Shown here: piece after piece, positions 1-14,492 of the stretch
Layout of the letters: each line of letters opens with the position of its first letter
Position numbering within the stretch: the stretch's first letter is position 1
IMG/VR virus record: IMGVR_UViG_3300037264_000195
Location: 1 to 20,064 of that record
Origin: a virus
Length of the DNA: 20,064 nucleotides
Direction: 5' to 3' (one strand)
Translations under genes and position numbers: made by a program
Notes under the pieces: generated by a model
Database searches by the model: none
Told to the model about the DNA's origin: nothing
What the model saw: only the letters and a program-made list of their open reading frames with translations

Positions 1-480
1 ATCAGCGTATTCGGTTCCGCCACCAGCAGCAGCATAATCTCCATTAGTATCTGTTAAACGAACTGCTAGAGGTTTACTGTTTGCATAGCTAAATACAGTA
101 GCTTGTCCTGCGACAACTCGTACTCTAACTGCCTCATTAGCCTCATCCATAACTGTTATACCAGAAGTTGTTTCTAGAGCAGTTAATAGACCTCTACGTT
201 GGGTCATTGCAAATGCGCCCGCGTCGTTATCGTCCACTAAATCTCTAGTAGACCTATAAGTACCGCCAGCTGGAGTAAATGACGTAGACCCTGGCGAGAA
301 GCCAGCATCGTCTGTCATGTTTGTTCCGCCAGCGCCGCCGGTTACACGTAGCGCACCAGACAAATCTGTTGATAAAGCTACTTGATTCCCCTCAGAATAA
401 CTTGGTCCTGCTGTAGTAGCAACGGCAGGAAGAACTCCAAGGTTGGTCCCTAATGGAGCAGAGGTATTGTTTGTCTTAGT
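1..480 (-). repeat. Second copy of a composite module (VLPAVAT + TYRSTRDLVDD + NPLAVRLTD)
   Basis: In reading order this segment encodes GVLPAVAT and STDLSGALRVTGG (about 480-310), GGTYRSTRDLVDD and AFAMTQRR (about 295-125), then KPLAVRLTDTNGDY and GGGTEYAD (100-1). The same order appears at about 2440-1610, where the middle unit is present twice. The copy is cut by the window edge, so the composite period may continue to the left. Confidence 0.8.
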
Positions 481-3400
481 TCCAGAGAAGATTAAGACGC
501 CACTGGTTCCACGGACTCGATCCCATGTAGTACCATTAAAGATATATTGATTAGCACTTGTGGGTATTGTAACCTTGGTTACCGAGATCCCATCGGAACT
601 AATATTTCCAATATCTACAAGTGAGCCTGTAGTACTAGCTAAAAATGTTCCTTGAATGCCACGTGTCGAGAACCAAGCATTTACCCTGTCGCCATCAGAA
701 ACGTTAGGTGGAGCGATAGAAGAAGCATACCCGCCGATCTTAACTGGATTGCCTATATCTACATCATCATGAGCTGTATCACCTTGCACAGCATTATTGT
801 TGACTCCAGAAACTAGTAATCTACTTTGGTCTGTAGCTATAACTACTCTTTGTGTTCCTGCATCAACATTCCCGGCATTTACCGAAGTAGTAGTTCCAAC
901 TATTTGAGCTAGATTAAAGGCTTGATTAGCTGGGAAAGTTCCTATATTAACAGTTCCATCAACTGTAATTGAATTTCCATTATCCCAAATACCAGCAACC
1001 CCAGAAGTCACAAAGACTCCAGTGCCTGCATTAGCTGTAACAGTTGGAGTATTTCCAATATTTACATCGAGTCGCCCACCAACAAGACTAGTTGGGAATT
1101 GTCCAGATTGAGCAATATGATAGAAAGCCGAACCATCTGAAGCTCTTATAGCAACAGGAGTCCCAACAGGAGCATCGATTGTAAGTGAACCAGCATTATC
1201 TGTTACAGGGAATGCAGCTGCTGCTGTAACTGTAGCTTGAAGATTTGCGGGTGTTCCTTGAGAGACTACCAGAGAAGCATTAGTTACGTTTGTATTTAAT
1301 GTTCCTGTCCCAGCATTAGCTGTAACTACACCACTTATTAATATTTGTGGCTGGTTTGAAGCAAGGACTGCTCTTATAGTTCCAGCATCGGCATTACCTA
1401 TATTTACACTTGTAGCAATCCCGGCTACTTGAGCCATATTAAATGGTTGGTTACTAGGGAAAGTCCCAACATTAACAGACCAGGTTCCAGATTGAGTAAC
1501 TACAAGAGCATCTCTAGCTACTGTTAAAGTTCTTATATCTAGATTACCTGGGACTGTTAGAACATCTACTTGTAGGTCTCCAGAGGAATCTGTAGTTATA
1601 GCTCTTACGTTTGAACCATCATGGCCAAGCGCGACTGTGCCAGTTGGCGTCCCCTGAGCAGCTCCATCTGCATATTGTGTTCCTCCGCCTGCTGTTACAT
1701 AATCTCCAGCTGTATCTGTAAGTCTAACTGCTAGAGGGTTGCTATTGGCAAAATCTAGGACTGTGGCCTTTATAGCAGAAGAAACACCATCTACAATAGC
1801 TCCATCACTAGCAGATCCACCAACTAATGTTACTCGTACTGCTTCCTTACCTTCGTCTACAACTGTAACTCCTGAAACGGTTTCTAAAACAGCAAGCATT
1901 CCACGCCGCTGGGTCATTGCGAAGGCCCCGGCGTCTGCATCGTCTACTAGGTCTCTTGTAGAACGATAAGTACCTCCTATTGGAGTGAATGATGTAACTG
2001 CTACAGTAAATGCAGCATCGTCTGTCATTGCTGTGCCACCAGAACCAGCACCAGCTATAATATTTACTCTTAGTGCCCCATTTACTTCATCCATTGCCGA
2101 CATACCAGACATAGTTTCTATGGCTGTTATTAGGCTGCGCTTTTGCGTCATAGCAAAGGCCCCGGCATCATTATCATCAACTAGGTCTCTTGTTGATTTA
2201 TAAGTTCCACCTACGGGAGTTAATGCTGTGGAACCTACGCTAAATGCTGAATCATCTGTAATAGAAGTTCCACCAGCTGCACCACCAGTAATACGTAGAG
2301 CACCACTTAGATCTGTAGATAGACCTACAAGCCTACCTTCTACTAGAGAAGGTCCTGAAGCTGTAGCAATAGCTGGGAGGACTCCAATATTTATTCCGCC
2401 AGGAACTTCTGTATTGCTTGCTCGATTACCTGAGAAGACTAGGACTGGATCAAAAATAGTACTATTAGTAAATCTTACGGGTAGATAATCTCCTGCTGCA
2501 GGCGAAACTGGAGTTACATCGAATACTCCTGTTCCAGCATTAGCTGTCACAGTTCCAGATACTGGCACTGCAGACTGATCAGAAGAAATAGCTACTGAGA
2601 TCGAGTTCGCCATTGTCTGCTGACCTTCATTGGGCAGCGAAACAATGTCTACATTGCCTATATTATTATCGCCAGCAGGCAATGCGGCAATAACATCAAC
2701 TTGCATTTCAGATCCTGAAATAGCATTGTCAATTATTTCTACGGCATTCTTAATAGATGTTGCAGTTGTTTCTAGAGCTAATGCAGATGTGTTTAGATTT
2801 GTTCCAGCATTAGCTGTAACTGTAGGGGTATTCCCTACACTAACATCTAGACGGCCGCTGATTAATGCAGCAGGAAGCTGACCAGAAAGAGTAGGAATAA
2901 TAAACGCTGATCCATCTGATTGTCTTACTGCTACTGGTGTTCCTACAGGAGCATCTACAGTAAGTGATCCAGCATTATCAGTTACAGGAAATGCAGAGGC
3001 TGCAGTAACTGTAGCTTGTAAACTAGTTGGAGTAGATTGTGTAACTACTAATGAAGTATTACTTACAGTAGCAATAACATTTCCAGAAACTGTAACTGTA
3101 GGTTGATTGCCAATATTAACTGTTCCATCAACCGTAATTGAGTTACCATTATCCCAGATTCCAGTTACACCAGAGGTTACTATTGTGCCCTGATTGGTTG
3201 CTATAACTACTCTTTGGGTCCCAGTGTCTGTATTACCAGCACCAACAGAAGCTGCTACTCCTGCAATTTGACTAAGGTTAACAGCAGGAGTGTTTGTAAT
3301 ATTGGCATTAACATTCCCAGAAACTATTACTGTTGGAGTATTTCCAATGTTGACATCTAACCGTCCAGACACCAAAGAGGTTGGGAATTGACCTGAGTGA

Positions 3401-4974
3401 GCAATATGATAAAAGGCTGAACCATCGGATGCTCTAACAGCTACAGGCGTTCCAACTGGAGCATCTATTGTGAGTGAACCTGCATTATCACTTACTGGGA
3501 ATACTTGGCCAGCTGCAGGTGTAACTGTGGTTTGTAAACTTGCTGGAGTAGCCTGAGTTACAATTAATGAAGTATTGGTAACTGTTGCATTAACGTTGCC
3601 AGACACTATTACCGTTGGAGAATTGCCCACATTAATATCTAAACGATTATTTACTAATGAAGCTGGGAATTGTCCTGATTGAGCAAGATTATATAGACTT
3701 GAGCCATCAGATCCTCTTACTGGAAGAGGTGTGTTTGTCGGCGCATCAACTGTTAAAGAACTAGAGTTATCAGTTACAGGGAACGCTGCTGCTGCAGTTA
3801 CTGTAGCTTGTAAACTAGAAGGTGTTGATTGTATAACTGTGAAAGATCCAGTTCCAGCATTAGCTGTTACAACGCCACTTACTAATACCTGTGGCTGATT
3901 GGATGCTAAGACTACTCTTTGAGTTCCGGCATCAGAATTGCCAACTCCTACACTTGTAGCAGTACCAGTTACCTGAGCTAGGTTAACTGATTGATTGGCT
4001 GGAACTGAGGTAACAGATACACTTGGACTATTACCAACATTAACATCTAGTCGCCCAGATATCAAAGAAGTTGGCAATTGTCCAGACATGGTTGGTAGGA
4101 AAAAAGCACTACCATCTGAAAGTCTAGTTGCCACAGGAGTTCCAACTGGTGCATCAACTGTAAGCGAACCAGCGTTATCAGTTACTGGAAATGCAGAAGC
4201 TGCAGTGACTGTAGCCTGTAAACTTGCTGGAGTAGATTGTGTAACTACTAGAGAGGAGTTAGTTACAGTAGCATTGACGTTGCCTGATACAGTAACTGTA
4301 GGCTGATTACCTATATTAACCGTGCCGTCAACTGTGATCGAGTTACCGTTGTCCCAAATTCCTGCCACACCAGAAGTTACAAAGATACCAGTTCCTGCAT
4401 TGACAGTGACTGTACCGTCAACCGTAATTGAATTGCCACCATCATAGATAGAAGTTACGCCACTGACAGTTACTAATGGCTGGTTTGAAGCAAGAACTAC
4501 TCGTTGAGTACCAGTATCGGCATTCCCTGTATTTACAGATGTAGCAGTACCTGCAACTTGAGCAATATTAAATGGCTCATTATCTGGAAATGAACTAATT
4601 GCAACAGTACCTGAGATAGGCTGTGTAACACCAGAGCCATCTACTGCTAATCTGCCGCTAGCAGTAGTTAGGAAAGAAGTTCCGTCTGATAGTCTAGCTG
4701 CAACAGGAGATGTTACAGCTGCATCTATTGTTATAGAAGATCCGGCATCATCAATACTAAAGATTACGCCAGAGGTAACTACTCTGGTTACTAGTCCTAG
4801 GTCATTAGCAGAAGGAGCTGCATCTTTAACTCTGGCTATTTCTGTTAATCCGGCACCAGCTAGAACTACTCTTGGTCGTTTACGTAGTAGAGGAGGACTA
4901 CCATAGGTAAGCCCTTCCTCATCCATAACATCTCCGCCCGTGCCGCTATTAAGTACTGTATAATCTTCTGCCAT
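1..4974 (-). CDS. Giant repetitive virion protein, likely fibre or surface structural protein (C-terminus beyond window)
   Basis: The minus-strand frame from ATG at 4974 stays open for 1658 codons and runs off the left edge, so the C-terminus is missing. Residues 1-60 are non-repetitive, with a basic patch (LLRKRPRV), and may anchor the protein to the virion. The rest is rich in T, V, G, S, N and A with almost no Cys or Trp, as expected for stacked beta-strands. It is built from recurring modules: an AFPVTDN/VDAPVGTPVA/SGQLP/GRLDVN unit (five copies), an AQVAGTATSV/GTQRVVLASNQ unit (five), a GGTYRSTRDLVDD/AFAMTQRR unit (three), a VLPAVAT/STDLSGALRVTGG unit (two) and a NPLAVRLTDTAGDY unit (two). 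Similar repeats occur in phage tail or head-fibre proteins; receptor binding is an inference. It starts two bases after the stop of the 128-residue gene, with no clear Shine-Dalgarno, so translation is probably coupled. Adhesin-like surface display is an alternative. Confidence 0.85.
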   Translation of the reverse strand, partial: MAEDYTVLNSGTGGDVMDEEGLTYGSPPLLRKRPRVVLAGAGLTEIARVKDAAPSANDLGLVTRVVTSGVIFSIDDAGSSITIDAAVTSPVAARLSDGTSFLTTASGRLAVDGSGVTQPISGTVAISSFPDNEPFNIAQVAGTATSVNTGNADTGTQRVVLASNQPLVTVSGVTSIYDGGNSITVDGTVTVNAGTGIFVTSGVAGIWDNGNSITVDGTVNIGNQPTVTVSGNVNATVTNSSLVVTQSTPASLQATVTAASAFPVTDNAGSLTVDAPVGTPVATRLSDGSAFFLPTMSGQLPTSLISGRLDVNVGNSPSVSVTSVPANQSVNLAQVTGTATSVGVGNSDAGTQRVVLASNQPQVLVSGVVTANAGTGSFTVIQSTPSSLQATVTAAAAFPVTDNSSSLTVDAPTNTPLPVRGSDGSSLYNLAQSGQFPASLVNNRLDINVGNSPTVIVSGNVNATVTNTSLIVTQATPASLQTTVTPAAGQVFPVSDNAGSLTIDAPVGTPVAVRASDGSAFYHIAHSGQFPTSLVSGRLDVNIGNTPTVIVSGNVNANITNTPAVNLSQIAGVAASVGAGNTDTGTQRVVIATNQGTIVTSGVTGIWDNGNSITVDGTVNIGNQPTVTVSGNVIATVSNTSLVVTQSTPTSLQATVTAASAFPVTDNAGSLTVDAPVGTPVAVRQSDGSAFIIPTLSGQLPAALISGRLDVSVGNTPTVTANAGTNLNTSALALETTATSIKNAVEIIDNAISGSEMQVDVIAALPAGDNNIGNVDIVSLPNEGQQTMANSISVAISSDQSAVPVSGTVTANAGTGVFDVTPVSPAAGDYLPVRFTNSTIFDPVLVFSGNRASNTEVPGGINIGVLPAIATASGPSLVEGRLVGLSTDLSGALRITGGAAGGTSITDDSAFSVGSTALTPVGGTYKSTRDLVDDNDAGAFAMTQKRSLITAIETMSGMSAMDEVNGALRVNIIAGAGSGGTAMTDDAAFTVAVTSFTPIGGTYRSTRDLVDDADAGAFAMTQRRGMLAVLETVSGVTVVDEGKEAVRVTLVGGSASDGAIVDGVSSAIKATVLDFANSNPLAVRLTDTAGDYVTAGGGTQYADGAAQGTPTGTVALGHDGSNVRAITTDSSGDLQVDVLTVPGNLDIRTLTVARDALVVTQSGTWSVNVGTFPSNQPFNMAQVAGIATSVNIGNADAGTIRAVLASNQPQILISGVVTANAGTGTLNTNVTNASLVVSQGTPANLQATVTAAAAFPVTDNAGSLTIDAPVGTPVAIRASDGSAFYHIAQSGQFPTSLVGGRLDVNIGNTPTVTANAGTGVFVTSGVAGIWDNGNSITVDGTVNIGTFPANQAFNLAQIVGTTTSVNAGNVDAGTQRVVIATDQSRLLVSGVNNNAVQGDTAHDDVDIGNPVKIGGYASSIAPPNVSDGDRVNAWFSTRGIQGTFLASTTGSLVDIGNISSDGISVTKVTIPTSANQYIFNGTTWDRVRGTSGVLIFSGTKTNNTSAPLGTNLGVLPAVATTAGPSYSEGNQVALSTDLSGALRVTGGAGGTNMTDDAGFSPGSTSFTPAGGTYRSTRDLVDDNDAGAFAMTQRRGLLTALETTSGITVMDEANEAVRVRVVAGQATVFSYANSKPLAVRLTDTNGDYAAAGGGTEYAD
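1030..4260 (-). repeat. Five dispersed copies of the AFPVTDN...GRLDVN protein module
   Basis: Module of about 60 residues in the giant repeat protein. Approximate copies: 4030-4210, 3610-3810, 3335-3540, 2830-3020 and 1050-1230. Each carries SLQATVT, AFPVTDN (or VFPVSDN), a LT(V/I)DAP strand, an SDGS turn, SGQ(L/F)P and RLD(V/I)N. The most similar stretches, 2941-3180 and 4141-4380, are exactly 1200 bases apart. Copies are close in protein sequence but visibly diverged at third codon positions. Confidence 0.85.
1610..2440 (-). repeat. First copy of the composite module, with the middle unit duplicated
   Basis: In reading order: GVLPAIAT and STDLSGALRITGG (about 2440-2260); GGTYKSTRDLVDD with AFAMTQKR (about 2230-2060); GGTYRSTRDLVDD with AFAMTQRR (about 2000-1830); then NPLAVRLTDTAGDY and GGGTQYADGA (about 1760-1610). 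The two middle units are adjacent and in frame, which fits a local tandem duplication relative to the copy at 1-480. Confidence 0.8.
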
Positions 4975-4976
4975 AG

Positions 4977-5363
4977 TTATGCTGCCGTAACCGACAAATC
5001 ACCTGCTAGGAACTTAGCTTGCTGGCCAGATAGTAGAGTTATAGGAGAAGTTATTGCTCCATGATATAGAAGATTTCCGCCAGAAGAAGCATCTAGGATA
5101 CCCATATGGGTAATAGTTCCCCATCCAGCAGTTGCAACCGGGAACGTTATATCAGTTGTATTAGTAGATAGACCATTACTTGGAGCATTCCAAGTACTAG
5201 CCATTCTTACATAACTACCACCAGAGACTTCTGTGCCAGTATTGGCATCAGTAGGGTTAGCAGTATATAGAGCTACGTATACAGTAGTTATAGTAGTCCA
5301 GGCTTGTCCCCTAAGGGTAATATTTATTACTTTATCTTCTAAGTAATCAGAAGCGTTAGCCAA
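4977..5363 (-). CDS. Small virion protein resembling the phage tail-fibre-like (Gp80-type) family
   Basis: This 128-residue protein has the layout of a small beta-sandwich family common in phage tail or fibre regions: a short N-terminal helix (SDYLEDKVINITL), a YVALYTANPTD strand and turn, an EVSGGSYVR turn, a DITFPVATAGWGTITHMGILDA region, and a C-terminal strand ending AKFLAGDLSVT. Family assignment is from memory of these motifs. The start is TTG at 5363: the codon before it in frame is a TGA stop, and GAGG (5373-5376) lies nine bases upstream. A nearby ATG at 5367 opens only a three-codon out-of-frame ORF. It lies 31 bases after the Ig-like gene and two bases before the giant repeat gene, suggesting these products act together at the virion surface. 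Confidence 0.78.
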   Translation of the reverse strand: MANASDYLEDKVINITLRGQAWTTITTVYVALYTANPTDANTGTEVSGGSYVRMASTWNAPSNGLSTNTTDITFPVATAGWGTITHMGILDASSGGNLLYHGAITSPITLLSGQQAKFLAGDLSVTAA

Positions 5364-5394: not shown

Positions 5395-6498
5395 TTATAT
5401 GTCTAATATTACTTGCTTACCATTAACGGTAATATTCTTATATATCTTCCTTGTTGGAAGTAGTCCTTCGTCGCCATTAACAGGATATGCAGTTATAGTT
5501 ATCTTATCTGATGCTACGGTGCTGGCATTTACATTCTTATTAAAGTTAATTAATATTCTAGATGTATCTAGAGGCATCTGTGTAGATGTATCTTTAGGAG
5601 ATACAGAAGTTATAGCAAATATACTTGGAACGACTGCAGAAGTAGCTACCCCAGATATATCTCCTATTATTGATGTAGATGTAGTAGTTGGAAGAGTTTG
5701 TATTGATCCAGAAGCTGTTTCAAATTCCCAAACAACATTACCTAAGAATAAAGTTGGTTTCCTAACTACTACAGAGAAAGTATCTCCTACAGAGAAAGTT
5801 CCACTTAGAAATCTAGTAGAGATACCCTGTTCTAATACAATAGACCTAGATGCAGAGCTATTAATTGGACCGTGGATTAATAGAGGATAACTATTCCTCC
5901 ACCATTCAAATTTAGCTGTTCCTGGCGGTCCAGCAGTAGTTACTTTAACTTTGTAAGTATCTTCTAAAACACTATCTTTATAAGGACCTCTAAATTCTAT
6001 TTCTCCAGTTCCTAGATTAGGACCCTTTAGGGTATCAAATACTGATCTAGTAGTTACACCAGTCTTTAGTAAGTCTACTAAATTTTCATCACCAGTTATA
6101 TATACTTTATATTTAGTGATTGGAGAAAGTCTTTGTGATGGAGTAAATATAGCCTTGTGTCTAAACGTTGTCCCTATACCTGAGAAATCAAATCCACTAT
6201 AGACTCCATAATCTCCAGCATTGATCTTCTCAAAGGAAAAAGTTCCTTTAACTAGACCTCTAAGTCCAGGAGACATAATTTGATCCTGTGTTGAAGACTG
6301 ACTAGTCTGTGGAAGATGTAGGCTATATTCTGGACCTATTACAGAATCTGTATCTGGACCTTCTACGAATAGAGATGCTTTAATAGATTCTTCATCTATC
6401 TCTCTATCAAATAGAATCCATATTTGATCAGTTACAATTATACCTATAGCATTAGATCCTGGATGTGTTGCAGTAATTATTGAAGATAAATCAGCCAT
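5395..6498 (-). CDS. Virion protein with Ig-like (SbsA/Big_5-type) domains, last domain apparently short
   Basis: The 367-residue product has three beta domains by eye. Residues 8-136 look like an SbsA/Big_5-type Ig fold (ATHPGSNAIG, WILFDREIDEES, FTPSQRLSPITKYKVYI). Residues 165-262 resemble a beta domain frequent in phage structural proteins (TYKVKVTTAGPPGTAKFEWW, then GISTRFLSGTFSVGDTFSV). Residues 293-367 start a second Ig fold (ITSVSPKDTSTQMPLDTS, ILINFNKNVNAST) but stop at VNGKQVILDI, before the usual closing strands. Neither other frame continues beyond the stop. The gene starts at ATG 6498, three bases after the preceding stop and without a clear Shine-Dalgarno, so it is probably translated by coupling. 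Its role is likely virion decoration or adhesion; no catalytic motif is seen. Confidence 0.75.
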   Translation of the reverse strand: MADLSSIITATHPGSNAIGIIVTDQIWILFDREIDEESIKASLFVEGPDTDSVIGPEYSLHLPQTSQSSTQDQIMSPGLRGLVKGTFSFEKINAGDYGVYSGFDFSGIGTTFRHKAIFTPSQRLSPITKYKVYITGDENLVDLLKTGVTTRSVFDTLKGPNLGTGEIEFRGPYKDSVLEDTYKVKVTTAGPPGTAKFEWWRNSYPLLIHGPINSSASRSIVLEQGISTRFLSGTFSVGDTFSVVVRKPTLFLGNVVWEFETASGSIQTLPTTTSTSIIGDISGVATSAVVPSIFAITSVSPKDTSTQMPLDTSRILINFNKNVNASTVASDKITITAYPVNGDEGLLPTRKIYKNITVNGKQVILDI

Positions 6499-7139: not shown

Positions 7140-8435
7140 TTAAAGAACTGAAGCAGTGGGAGAGATCTTACCAAGTGTACCGCTTACATCTAGAGTTGCC
7201 ATTGCAGGTAGTACGACTTCATTTGGTACAACATGGACATTACGAATAACACCAATTGCCTGACCCTCATTTAAGATACCTATACCATAACGTTCTCGGA
7301 ACTTAATCTTACGAATGTCTACTCGTGGGTCATCGAACTCTTCTGTAGTTACATCTTCGTCAACTATTAGAACTCCCAGTTCATTACTATCGAACATGTA
7401 GATATCTGTTAGCTTTCGAGCTGCATCAAATGGCACAAATGGGCTAACTATAATTCTCATAGTCATACCCCAGTAACCAGGGATTATTGGTGCAGAAGTC
7501 ATTGACTGTACGTGAGGAGCCATTGCAGATGTTGCAGCAGCGCCTGAAGCTGCAGCCCCGCCAGTAGCAGTGGATGGACCACTTATTGTATTCTGTCCAG
7601 GAGAGATACCCATCCCGCCCTGTGAAGAATTACCCCATGGTGCTTGCTGATTTACCTGGCCATTCCAACCAGCTAGGAAAGACCCGCTACCATTAGCCAT
7701 AGCGAAGGCTCGTAGTGTAGGATCCTTCACAAATAGACTCCATGTTAATGGATGCATTAGAAGTGTATTAGGTATAAATCCTTGAGTTAGAATATGTGCA
7801 TAAGCATCGAAGACATCATCCATAGTTAGAGAACCATTGGCTGCACCAGTAATATCTCTACCTGTAGTAACACCTTTAAGAGAGGCAGTAGGTGTTAGGT
7901 TATCGAATACTGTAACGCCCATTTTTCTAATAAAGTTAAAGATCTTAACTTCTTTATGACGGGCAAGGGCTCTACCGGCTGCTCTTAGATGAAGACCGAT
8001 AACATCAAACTGTGAGTAGCGAACCATTTCATCTGTTATACGAACAGCAACACCAGACTTCCCGATTGATGCTGTAACCGTCCCGCCTCCCATCTGAAGC
8101 GAACGCTCTGGATACTCTTGGCCTTCTGCAATATCTGCAGCTACCAATGCTCCAACAGCTGGGAATGATATAGTCTGCCCATAACTATAGTTAATTCTCT
8201 GTAGGAGAGAGGTGCCAATAAGCAGGGGCTCAGCAGCTTCTTTAACTATATTGGAGACGACTTTTGGGAATAGAATTGGGGCATTGGGAACGGAGAGAGC
8301 ATCTTTTAGCTCCATCGTAGTCCCGTCTGGAAGTTTCCCTTTATTCCTCCAGAGCCATTCAAACTCAGTTACATCCTTGATATCTAACTGACTATCAGAT
8401 GTATCCTTGTTTTCTAGCGTAGTAACTGCTGACAT
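7140..8435 (-). CDS. Major capsid protein, HK97 fold
   Basis: The 431-residue protein has the size and layout of an HK97-fold capsid subunit. Residues 80-132 look like the E-loop with its beta arms (GQTISFPAVGAL, AEGQEYPERS, GKSGVAVRITDEM). Residues 133-172 match the long spine helix, and residues 203-246 match the P/A-domain helix and strand (MDDVFDAYAHI, NTLLMHPLTW, DPTLRAFA). Residues 318-400 carry the C-terminal A-domain strands (MRIIVSPFVPFD, ELGVLIVDED, IKFRERYGIGIL). Residues 250-316 are an unusual Gly/Ala/Ser/Gln-rich insertion. No long N-terminal delta domain is present, consistent with the scaffold being carried by the protease gene. ATG 8435 is preceded by AGGAGG at 8448-8453 (12-base spacing). 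Position directly after the decoration candidate supports the call. Confidence 0.9.
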   Translation of the reverse strand: MSAVTTLENKDTSDSQLDIKDVTEFEWLWRNKGKLPDGTTMELKDALSVPNAPILFPKVVSNIVKEAAEPLLIGTSLLQRINYSYGQTISFPAVGALVAADIAEGQEYPERSLQMGGGTVTASIGKSGVAVRITDEMVRYSQFDVIGLHLRAAGRALARHKEVKIFNFIRKMGVTVFDNLTPTASLKGVTTGRDITGAANGSLTMDDVFDAYAHILTQGFIPNTLLMHPLTWSLFVKDPTLRAFAMANGSGSFLAGWNGQVNQQAPWGNSSQGGMGISPGQNTISGPSTATGGAAASGAAATSAMAPHVQSMTSAPIIPGYWGMTMRIIVSPFVPFDAARKLTDIYMFDSNELGVLIVDEDVTTEEFDDPRVDIRKIKFRERYGIGILNEGQAIGVIRNVHVVPNEVVLPAMATLDVSGTLGKISPTASVL

Positions 8436-11986: not shown

Positions 11987-12000
11987 TTTACTTGCCTCCT
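11984..12000 (-). promoter_or_regulatory. Shine-Dalgarno and TTG start of the protease gene
   Basis: AGGAGG (11995-12000) is formed by the last Gly codons of the portal gene, followed by GCAAGTAAA and TTG. Nearly the same leader, AGGAGGAAGCAAGTAAATG, precedes the decoration gene at 9624-9642, so this looks like a reused ribosome-binding module. Confidence 0.7.
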
Positions 12001-14492
12001 GCTTTACTTATAGACGCTTCATATATTGCAGATGCTTTACTAAGTATTTCATTCTCTGAAGCTTTAGGATATTTCTTTCTTAACTGATCTTTAATCTTCT
12101 TAAGACGTTCATTAAGATCTATTGCATCTTTTCTGTCAACTCTGAAAGAATATCCACATGCTCTGCAATTATATATATCTGGTGTATCTTTCTTTAATAT
12201 AGCTGTTTTCCCACATTTTGGACAAGATTCAGTATTCTTAAATACTTCTTCATGTGCATCTGAGTACACACAGTCTATATTACTTCTCTTATTATCTAGT
12301 ACTAGTTTACAGCCACAAGAACCATGATGTGGAATAATGTCATCAATAGTTAATAGCCATATATTATGAATATCTTTAGACTTCCTAAGACATTCTTCAC
12401 AGGTTCCAGTAGAGATAAAGTATGCCCTGCTCTCTCCACGTAAACGGCCCGCAGTAACAATCCCCCAATTATATGCTTTACGTATCTCTACATCGGCTAT
12501 AAAGCTGGCTCTATATTCAATAGAATCAAATATAGCTCTTATTGTAGAAACTCTAAGTTCCTTAGAAATCTTATCATTCGCAAAAACGCTGTCAATACGC
12601 CTGTTTATAGCTCGGAGTATATCCTTAGTAAGTTTATTAACCCAGAAGTTAGCTCTATCTTTGAATAATGTTGCAGCAAAATTAATAGCATTAATATAAA
12701 CTGAATTATAATATCTATTATCAAACTTTAAGGATTGTCTAAAGGTAGACATCATTCTATTCTCTAAATCATTAATCATCGATGTAGAATTAACTTCTAG
12801 TAATAAAGATATAAAGTTTACATCGCCATTGTTCTTAATGGCTTCGTTTATGATGTCATCACGTACATCATGAAGCTTATTAGTTAAGAAATTATCTTTC
12901 TTGACTCTCTTTACACGAGCAACAGCTATAGCTTTTTCCTTTTCAATCTCTGCCTTCTCTTTTTCAGCTTTAACTCCAGCTTCTCCAGCTGTAGTATTTG
13001 TAGTTGGTGTTAATGCAGTAGATCTAGATTCTGCTACTGCTTGTGCAACACTTCCAAATGGCTCATCTACTGCACTGATAAGCTGTTCTGGTTCATGGAA
13101 CAGCTTCCAGAATGTCTTTCCCCACTCTGGGAATTTAGTTAGATCTTGATCTTCGCCATCCTCTGGTACAGGAATTGGCTTCTTCCCAATAGCTATTCTT
13201 AATTCATCCCATGTAGTAGCATTCTTAGAGAATTGATCTGCTGCATGATTCTGAATCTTAATCTGCTTATCTATATCTATCTCTCTGAAACTTAATTGAA
13301 CTTTATTTTGTTCATCTAAGACTTCTGCGCCGAAAGTAGATTCTAGTAATAGTTCTGATATAACAAATTGAGTAAATTGTGTTTCTAATACTTCTTGGAA
13401 ATCTTTAACATCATCTATTAGAGCAAGAGACATATTATCGGAAGTAGCCTTATTACTTGTATCTCCCTCACCAAAATCTACAGCCGAACATCCTAGACCT
13501 GAGAATACTCTTCTCTTAAAATGCTCAAGATAAGACTCAGCTCTAAGTGCTCTGCTTTCTGCTCCGATAGCCTCTATCTCATGTCTTTCTGGTGTGACAA
13601 TGCCGCCCTCGGTAGGCATGTATTGAATCTCTCTTCTAACTATATCTACTTCTCGTTCTCCAGTTTCTGTTAGACCTGCTGGAGCTGTTTCTGTTCCTAC
13701 TTTATAATGGAAGAGAGGAAATAGATGTTTATATATTAGAAGCTCTACGTTTTCTTCTATCCTTCGCAGTGCTCTAATATCATCCATTACAGGAACAAGA
13801 GTAGGGCAACCAAATAGGAAACCCTCTTTTCTATCAAAATAGAAATGTACTACATCTTCTGGATCAAACTGTTTTTCTATACCATTAGGAGTACGTTGAA
13901 TCCATTTTAGTACTTTGCCATTATCATCAACAGCTACAAACATCATTTCTGGAGGTGCAGGGAAATAGGCTGCAATAGGCTCTATTTCTTTACCATTGCT
14001 ATCAACTCTAACTTTACCACCAGATGCTTCTCTATCTCTAATTTTTATTAGAAAGGCATTGGACCTTTTTATAATATAAGATCCTATTCTTCTTAATAGT
14101 TCTTCATGTGGAATACTTGAAGCTTTAGCTATTTGAGCTAAACGAGTCTTAATATACTTGGTTACTTTAGTATTCTCGCCAGTATAATCAAAACCTTCTT
14201 TAAACATAAGAGCAGTCTTTTTCTTAAAAGCTTGTCTTACATAAGATTCTACATCTTCAACTCTTCCAACTTCTATAAGATCATACTCTGGTGGAATAAG
14301 CCTAGCTCTATTAGCTGGTTTTGATGCACCAGTAGAAAGATAATGTAATGCAGGATTATTAACAGAGGGTATTTTTGATATAGGTGTAGAAGGACTTTCT
14401 TTTTCGGGAGCAGATTCTAAGTCTAGATCATTTATAGTCATGCTAGGAATCTTCTTAAAGAATGGTATTTCCCAGCCAAATATGTTAGCCAT
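11988..14492 (-). CDS. Portal protein fused to MuF-like head-morphogenesis domain and zinc ribbon
   Basis: At 834 residues this is longer than most portals because three parts are joined. Residues 60-470 look like a portal: GRVEDVESYVRQAF, an FDPEDVVHFYFDRKEG segment, FGCPTLVPVMDDIRALRR (wing-to-stem helix) and GLGCSAVDFGEGDTSNKAT, a pattern typical of portals. Residues 500-535 are a charged Lys/Glu coiled linker. Residues 545-735 match the MuF-like head-morphogenesis pattern: ADVEIRKAYNWG helix, CEEC (698-701), and PHHGSCGCKL with H722, H723, C726, C728. Residues 741-786 form a zinc ribbon with CPKC (757-760) and CRAC (776-779). A basic helical tail ends the protein. The portal forms the DNA-entry vertex; MuF-like domains are minor head proteins. 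ATG 14492 follows the upstream stop by seven bases, with AAAGG close by. Confidence 0.87.
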   Translation of the reverse strand: MANIFGWEIPFFKKIPSMTINDLDLESAPEKESPSTPISKIPSVNNPALHYLSTGASKPANRARLIPPEYDLIEVGRVEDVESYVRQAFKKKTALMFKEGFDYTGENTKVTKYIKTRLAQIAKASSIPHEELLRRIGSYIIKRSNAFLIKIRDREASGGKVRVDSNGKEIEPIAAYFPAPPEMMFVAVDDNGKVLKWIQRTPNGIEKQFDPEDVVHFYFDRKEGFLFGCPTLVPVMDDIRALRRIEENVELLIYKHLFPLFHYKVGTETAPAGLTETGEREVDIVRREIQYMPTEGGIVTPERHEIEAIGAESRALRAESYLEHFKRRVFSGLGCSAVDFGEGDTSNKATSDNMSLALIDDVKDFQEVLETQFTQFVISELLLESTFGAEVLDEQNKVQLSFREIDIDKQIKIQNHAADQFSKNATTWDELRIAIGKKPIPVPEDGEDQDLTKFPEWGKTFWKLFHEPEQLISAVDEPFGSVAQAVAESRSTALTPTTNTTAGEAGVKAEKEKAEIEKEKAIAVARVKRVKKDNFLTNKLHDVRDDIINEAIKNNGDVNFISLLLEVNSTSMINDLENRMMSTFRQSLKFDNRYYNSVYINAINFAATLFKDRANFWVNKLTKDILRAINRRIDSVFANDKISKELRVSTIRAIFDSIEYRASFIADVEIRKAYNWGIVTAGRLRGESRAYFISTGTCEECLRKSKDIHNIWLLTIDDIIPHHGSCGCKLVLDNKRSNIDCVYSDAHEEVFKNTESCPKCGKTAILKKDTPDIYNCRACGYSFRVDRKDAIDLNERLKKIKDQLRKKYPKASENEILSKASAIYEASISKAGGK

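Follow-up and report, generated by a model that had tools for sequence, protein, structure and literature searches.

The window analysed here, a 20,064-base virus fragment with all of its major genes on the (-) strand, ends inside a gene whose product we read as a virion protein of modular build, with a role as fibre or decoration protein in the head-neck region being most likely. We give this reading as a whole a probability of roughly two in three. Its stalk would consist of a few module types, probably β-rich, that recur along the chain, and old duplications or exchanges would have given rise to the copies of each module within the gene. Residues would be held fixed by purifying selection on module structure while the silent sites have drifted almost to randomness, and changes in copy number would come from homologous in-frame recombination of already diverged copies or alleles and not from fresh, identical tandem duplication.

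Gene neighbourhood

The (-) strand gene set comprises a terminase, a portal protein, capsid-associated genes, the major capsid protein (MCP), a small protein, a Big_5 protein, a gp80-like protein and the repeat gene (Table 1). The gp80-like protein matches PF23140 ('Podophage GP4 fiber I protein gp80') with E=1.3e-46 and the head protein family phrog_240 with E=3.2e-34; we found no paper describing gp80 of phage GP4 in the open-access literature. A fusion is suggested for the portal gene (11988-14492), whose product continues past the portal part with a region resembling head-morphogenesis proteins (phrog_8089) and has a zinc-ribbon-like end.

Table 1. Features of the window discussed in the text.
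Feature	Position	Strand	Basis
Repeat gene	1..4974	(-)	Open frame; ATG at 4974, no end before contig edge at base 1
gp80-like protein, directly upstream of repeat gene	4977..5363	(-)	PF23140 and phrog_240 matches
Big_5 Ig-like domain protein	5395..6498	(-)	PF13205 E=4.5e-12; synteny, kept downstream of MCP in relatives
MCP, anchor of head-gene block	7140..8435	(-)	PF25209 E=7.6e-18; phrog_3922
Module A copy 1	4006..4281, aa 232-323	(-)	Alignment, self-comparison
Module A copy 2	3598..3873, aa 368-459	(-)	Alignment, self-comparison
Module A copy 3	3319..3600, aa 459-552	(-)	Alignment, self-comparison
Module A copy 4	2806..3081, aa 632-723	(-)	Alignment, self-comparison
Module A copy 5	1027..1302, aa 1225-1316	(-)	Alignment, self-comparison
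Module B copy 1, FPDNEPFNIAQVAGTATSVN...	4465..4614	(-)	Alignment
Module B copy 2	3865..3999	(-)	Alignment
Module B copy 3	3145..3267	(-)	Alignment
Module B copy 4	1327..1473	(-)	Alignment
Module B copy 5	802..948	(-)	Alignment
Short motif C, DNGNSITVDGT	4321..4353	(-)	Also caught by module A core profile
Motif C, further copies	4411-4443 (DGGNSITVDGT), 3121-3153, 952-984		
Module E copy 1	2050..2292	(-)	Alignment
Module E copy 2	1810..2058	(-)	Alignment
Module E copy 3	106..348	(-)	Alignment

The block from the terminase to the Big_5 gene is conserved among the MCP relatives, which are uncultured phages. After the block, several of them encode tail sheath-like and tube-like proteins, recognised by eye from their sequences rather than by a family search; if this assignment holds, the MCP lineage would be contractile-tailed. 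The repeat gene was not found near the MCP in these relatives, and thus sits in a variable slot. A search of bacterial genome contigs with the MCP gave no match, and the same search with module B gave a single one, in a metagenome-assembled genome named Oleiharenicola (L134, JANYDW010000004.1); this may be a prophage or else a viral contig that was binned with the genome.

Organisation of the repeat gene

The repeat protein is at least 1658 residues long, with Thr, Val, Ala, Gly and Ser accounting for 58% of residues and Lys, Glu, His and Trp being rare. The gene is a mosaic of module A (~92 residues, five copies), module B (~45 residues, five copies), module E (~80 residues, three copies), the short motif C and linkers. 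An ungapped diagonal scan of the protein (self-BLAST returned the full self-match only) gave irregular module offsets of 78, 94, 136, 230, 264, 400, 593, 857 and 993 residues. The gene is not a regular tandem array. The module A copies are 61-74% identical at the DNA level.

A preliminary description of this DNA had drawn attention to two segments, 2941-3180 and 4141-4380, as collinear at exactly 1200 bases, and this is correct: the offset corresponds to 400 codons, although it is just one spacing among many. The two segments differ at 43 of 240 bases, distributed 4/2/37 over codon positions 1/2/3, while 75 of 80 residues are identical (NG86 dS 1.09, dN 0.029, dN/dS 0.03). The counts given for the last 60 bases (3121-3180 against 4321-4380) are also exact, with 13 differences, 19 of 20 residues identical and 11 silent changes. 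Twelve of the 13 differences are at third positions, but one of these falls in the changed Thr/Ala codon, leaving 11 that are strictly silent. The match around this pair is longer than first described, extending over 157 codons (residues 167-323 and 567-723; window 4006-4476 and 2806-3276) with 114 identical residues (73%), so the similarity of the pair is not due to chance.

Age of the module copies

The earlier proposal that these are old copies under strong protein-level selection is supported, in that residues are held while silent sites are almost saturated. All 18 module pairs compared have dN/dS values of 0.02-0.48, calculated on saturated dS. The proportion of synonymous differences in these pairs (pS, 0.52-0.75) reaches or approaches what random synonymous codons would give (0.66-0.73), and the dN/dS ratios are therefore not well measured. 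For this reason, we compared codon identity at residues shared by copies instead. In the best pair the same codon is used at 51 of 113 shared residues, against 44.8 expected from codon usage and 42.2 from within-copy permutation (P=0.028); the 80-codon block singled out originally has the same codon at 39 of 74. Across the five module A copies, eight of 41 invariant residues are also codon-invariant, against 3.3 expected (P=0.011). Codon sharing slightly above chance means that the silent sites are close to, but short of, full randomisation. These data support the conclusion that the module copies are old and retain a slight trace of common ancestry. The MCP orthologues of the nearest known relatives (67-77% amino acid identity) are about equally saturated. 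The module copies may thus date from about the same time as the splits that separate known members of the lineage, if rates are alike.

Could the divergence be an artefact, with modules from different strains joined during assembly? The contig end does lie inside the gene, in a stretch that is repeated at 1666-1750. Set against this, the 1658-residue frame is single and uninterrupted, and exact stretches shared by copies are too short to give rise to chimeras, with 23 nt as the longest in the best pair. We consider such an artefact extremely unlikely.

A widespread module family

The 27-residue core PVTDNAGSLTVDAPVGTPVFVRLSDGS occurs, whole or in part, in 20 genes of the family set on different contigs, and modules B and E occur on many contigs from which the window's capsid genes are absent. 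Among cultured phages, gp19 of Sphingomonas phage Scott carries a related module. The family of mosaic phage proteins is widespread (window 1-4974, L009-L045, L101-L112, L116-L134). None of the 11 members tested, the window protein and ten relatives, could be assigned to a Pfam or PHROG family, and the window protein gave no convincing NCBIfam match; the core marks a widespread module without an entry in the protein-family libraries searched. Copy number was compared with related phages, as the preliminary description had proposed, and does vary, with five full cores in the window and one or two in other genes.

Full-length cores agree on average at 22.0 of 27 positions among the window copies, at 21.0 between the window and other phages, and at 22.5 among the other phages themselves. 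Because the core is as alike between unrelated phages as within the gene, age cannot be read from it, and its conservation is a property of the module rather than a sign of recent duplication. The same similarity would be expected if the copies had not been duplicated in this lineage at all, but had been imported as diverged modules from other phages, their silent sites already different on arrival. Domain shuffling in phages is well documented (PMC10684548), and within the family the 3' halves of L103 and L105 are 98.5% identical while their middle modules differ. However, the window cores group together, albeit weakly (85/77) in a poorly resolved tree, and the module flanks are well kept among the window copies and largely missing from those of relatives. 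The residual codon sharing in module A also points to common ancestry. Import is therefore unlikely, though it deserves some weight, and we prefer old duplications or exchanges as the source of the copies.

Module exchange between close relatives

Recent shuffling was seen in three close relatives rather than in the window gene itself. The contigs L103, L104 and L105 are 91-95% identical on either side of the family gene, with a value of about 93% for L104 and L105. L105 has three 192-nt modules, while L104 and L103 have two. Comparison of L104:1270-3183 with L105:7239-9488 revealed that the first module of L104 is a hybrid: it follows L105 module 1 as far as nt 192 and, after a single switch, L105 module 2 from nt 198 onwards. 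Either L104 lost a module via recombination between diverged copies, or L105 gained one by unequal exchange between diverged alleles. The L104 hybrid junction is one event, taken from metagenome assemblies, and may be an assembly error; as it stands, L104/L105 is one clean case of a change in module number between diverged copies. The identity between L105 modules 1 and 2 is only about 82%; silent divergence was therefore no bar to exchange here. We infer that the window copies arose like the modules of L104 and L105. Another pair, L124/L125, was rejected as a copy-number change, as the 33-residue in-frame segment by which they differ is not a copy of its neighbours.

Was silent divergence selected?

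The preliminary description had also suggested that silent divergence would lower recombination between copies and so may stabilise the gene. In its strong form, this would mean that the divergence is itself selected: identical copies are removed or mutated since recombination between them deletes essential modules. If so, codon sharing should fall below chance and exact shared runs should be short. We took the best module pair of each of 37 non-redundant family genes. Pooled codon sharing was 0.436 against 0.425 expected (z=0.96), and the mean longest exact run was 12.5 nt against 11.3 nt in simulations. No best pair in the non-redundant set fell below z=-2, although some genes taken singly tend to the low side (L032, z=-1.9; L103, z=-2.2), and the window pair is above chance. 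Even pairs with high amino acid identity (84-100%; L039 91/108, L041 44/48, L107 21/21) have random silent sites. Other repeat genes on the same contigs, outside the family, are mostly saturated too, with a few recent duplications. With codon sharing at chance, exact runs that are not short, and the exchange in L104/L105, the suggested stabilising effect found no support, and we regard selection for silent divergence as very unlikely. Silent divergence is the ordinary ageing of copies under protein-level selection. The comparison provides a worked test for telling silent saturation in repeat genes apart from silent divergence under selection, and demonstrates saturation in this phage protein family.

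What does favour such selection is that clear residual silent similarity, with codon sharing clearly above chance, was seen in only three of the 37 genes, so that fresh identical duplicates are rare. Short-read assembly is prone to break at identical repeats. Fresh duplicates are thus probably under-represented, which would mimic selected divergence, and their rarity across the family cannot count as biology without long reads. A bolder version, in which recombination between diverged modules drives these virion genes, identical new copies almost never arise, and the near-absence of fresh duplicates reflects real counter-selection or removal and not only assembly bias, seems to us distinctly doubtful.

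Nature of the repeat protein

Searches of the repeat protein against Pfam, NCBIfam, PHROG and PDB sequences gave no convincing match. PF22097 (McpB HAMP) was rejected: its score of 24.3 bits is below the curated cut-off of 27, and no stretch passes alone. An AlphaFold2 model of the repeat region had no confident fold (pLDDT 61, pTM 0.22). More could be learned from L009, a different phage with a matching N-terminus, in which two related genes lie downstream of the major head protein and adjoin a phrog_9534 head protein. The C-terminal domain of L009 is predicted to be a β-sandwich with high confidence (pLDDT mostly >90), with middling structural matches to the HFTV1 turret, the KHP30/KHP40 and Pam1 capsid proteins, and the fibres of phage 7-7-1 (Z 6-7.3). 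As the window C-terminus is missing, the jelly-roll tip is visible only in this relative (Z ≤8.5).

Both the repeat gene and its L009 relative are encoded in a head-gene block, as a head fibre or decoration protein should be. We infer that the repeat protein is located on the virion and that it is a fibre; a head-neck fibre or decoration protein is our best guess. Other contexts in the family argue against a fibre: L106 is slightly upstream of the terminase gene, and L017 is upstream of a tape measure gene. In addition, the frames L017:7174-10470 and L041:7152-9803 include an apparent signal peptide start (MRRWALVGALLLGLAGPATAQ and MRRILALWLLELLLLPTLALAQ, respectively), which is odd for a virion protein and also speaks against the fibre reading.

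Comparison with known systems

The repeat protein resembles phage domain-mosaic proteins (Smug et al. 2023, PMC10684548) in that the family shares fragments among otherwise unrelated phage proteins, with their order recombined. It differs in that a single gene here also contains several copies of the same modules, whose silent-site age was measured, and in that the family is absent from Pfam, NCBIfam and PHROGs as far as tested. The likeness to head fibre and decoration proteins, such as the Ralstonia phage GP4 fiber I protein gp80 (PF23140), lies in the PF23140 protein directly upstream and in the location of the block downstream of the capsid gene; the repeat protein itself matches neither PF23140 nor another fibre family, and its virion location is predicted.

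Bacterial periscope proteins are likewise long surface proteins whose length is set by repeated modules, and their repeats have high DNA identity, linked to length variation (PMC8201768). In contrast, the repeats described here are interspersed at irregular spacing. We rejected classification as a periscope protein, which calls for tandem repeats of at least 80% identity and high DNA identity, as nucleotide identity in module A is 0.61-0.74. The repeats studied by Persi, Wolf and Koonin (PMC5120217) are also paralogous repeats in one protein with dN/dS <1, but are highly periodic and were chosen so that dS is measurable, whereas the present repeats lack periodicity and have a saturated dS.

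Repeat genes in distant MCP relatives

L095 and L099 are one contig (IMGVR_UViG_3300035034_002798) matched in both orientations. Its genes past 17.4 kb repeat earlier ones in inverted order; this inverted duplication is perhaps an assembly artefact. L095 and L094, both distant MCP relatives, encode a different repeat protein of 1127 residues downstream of the MCP (L094:12463-15843, L095:12491-15871), in which copies ~390 residues apart have likewise saturated silent sites.
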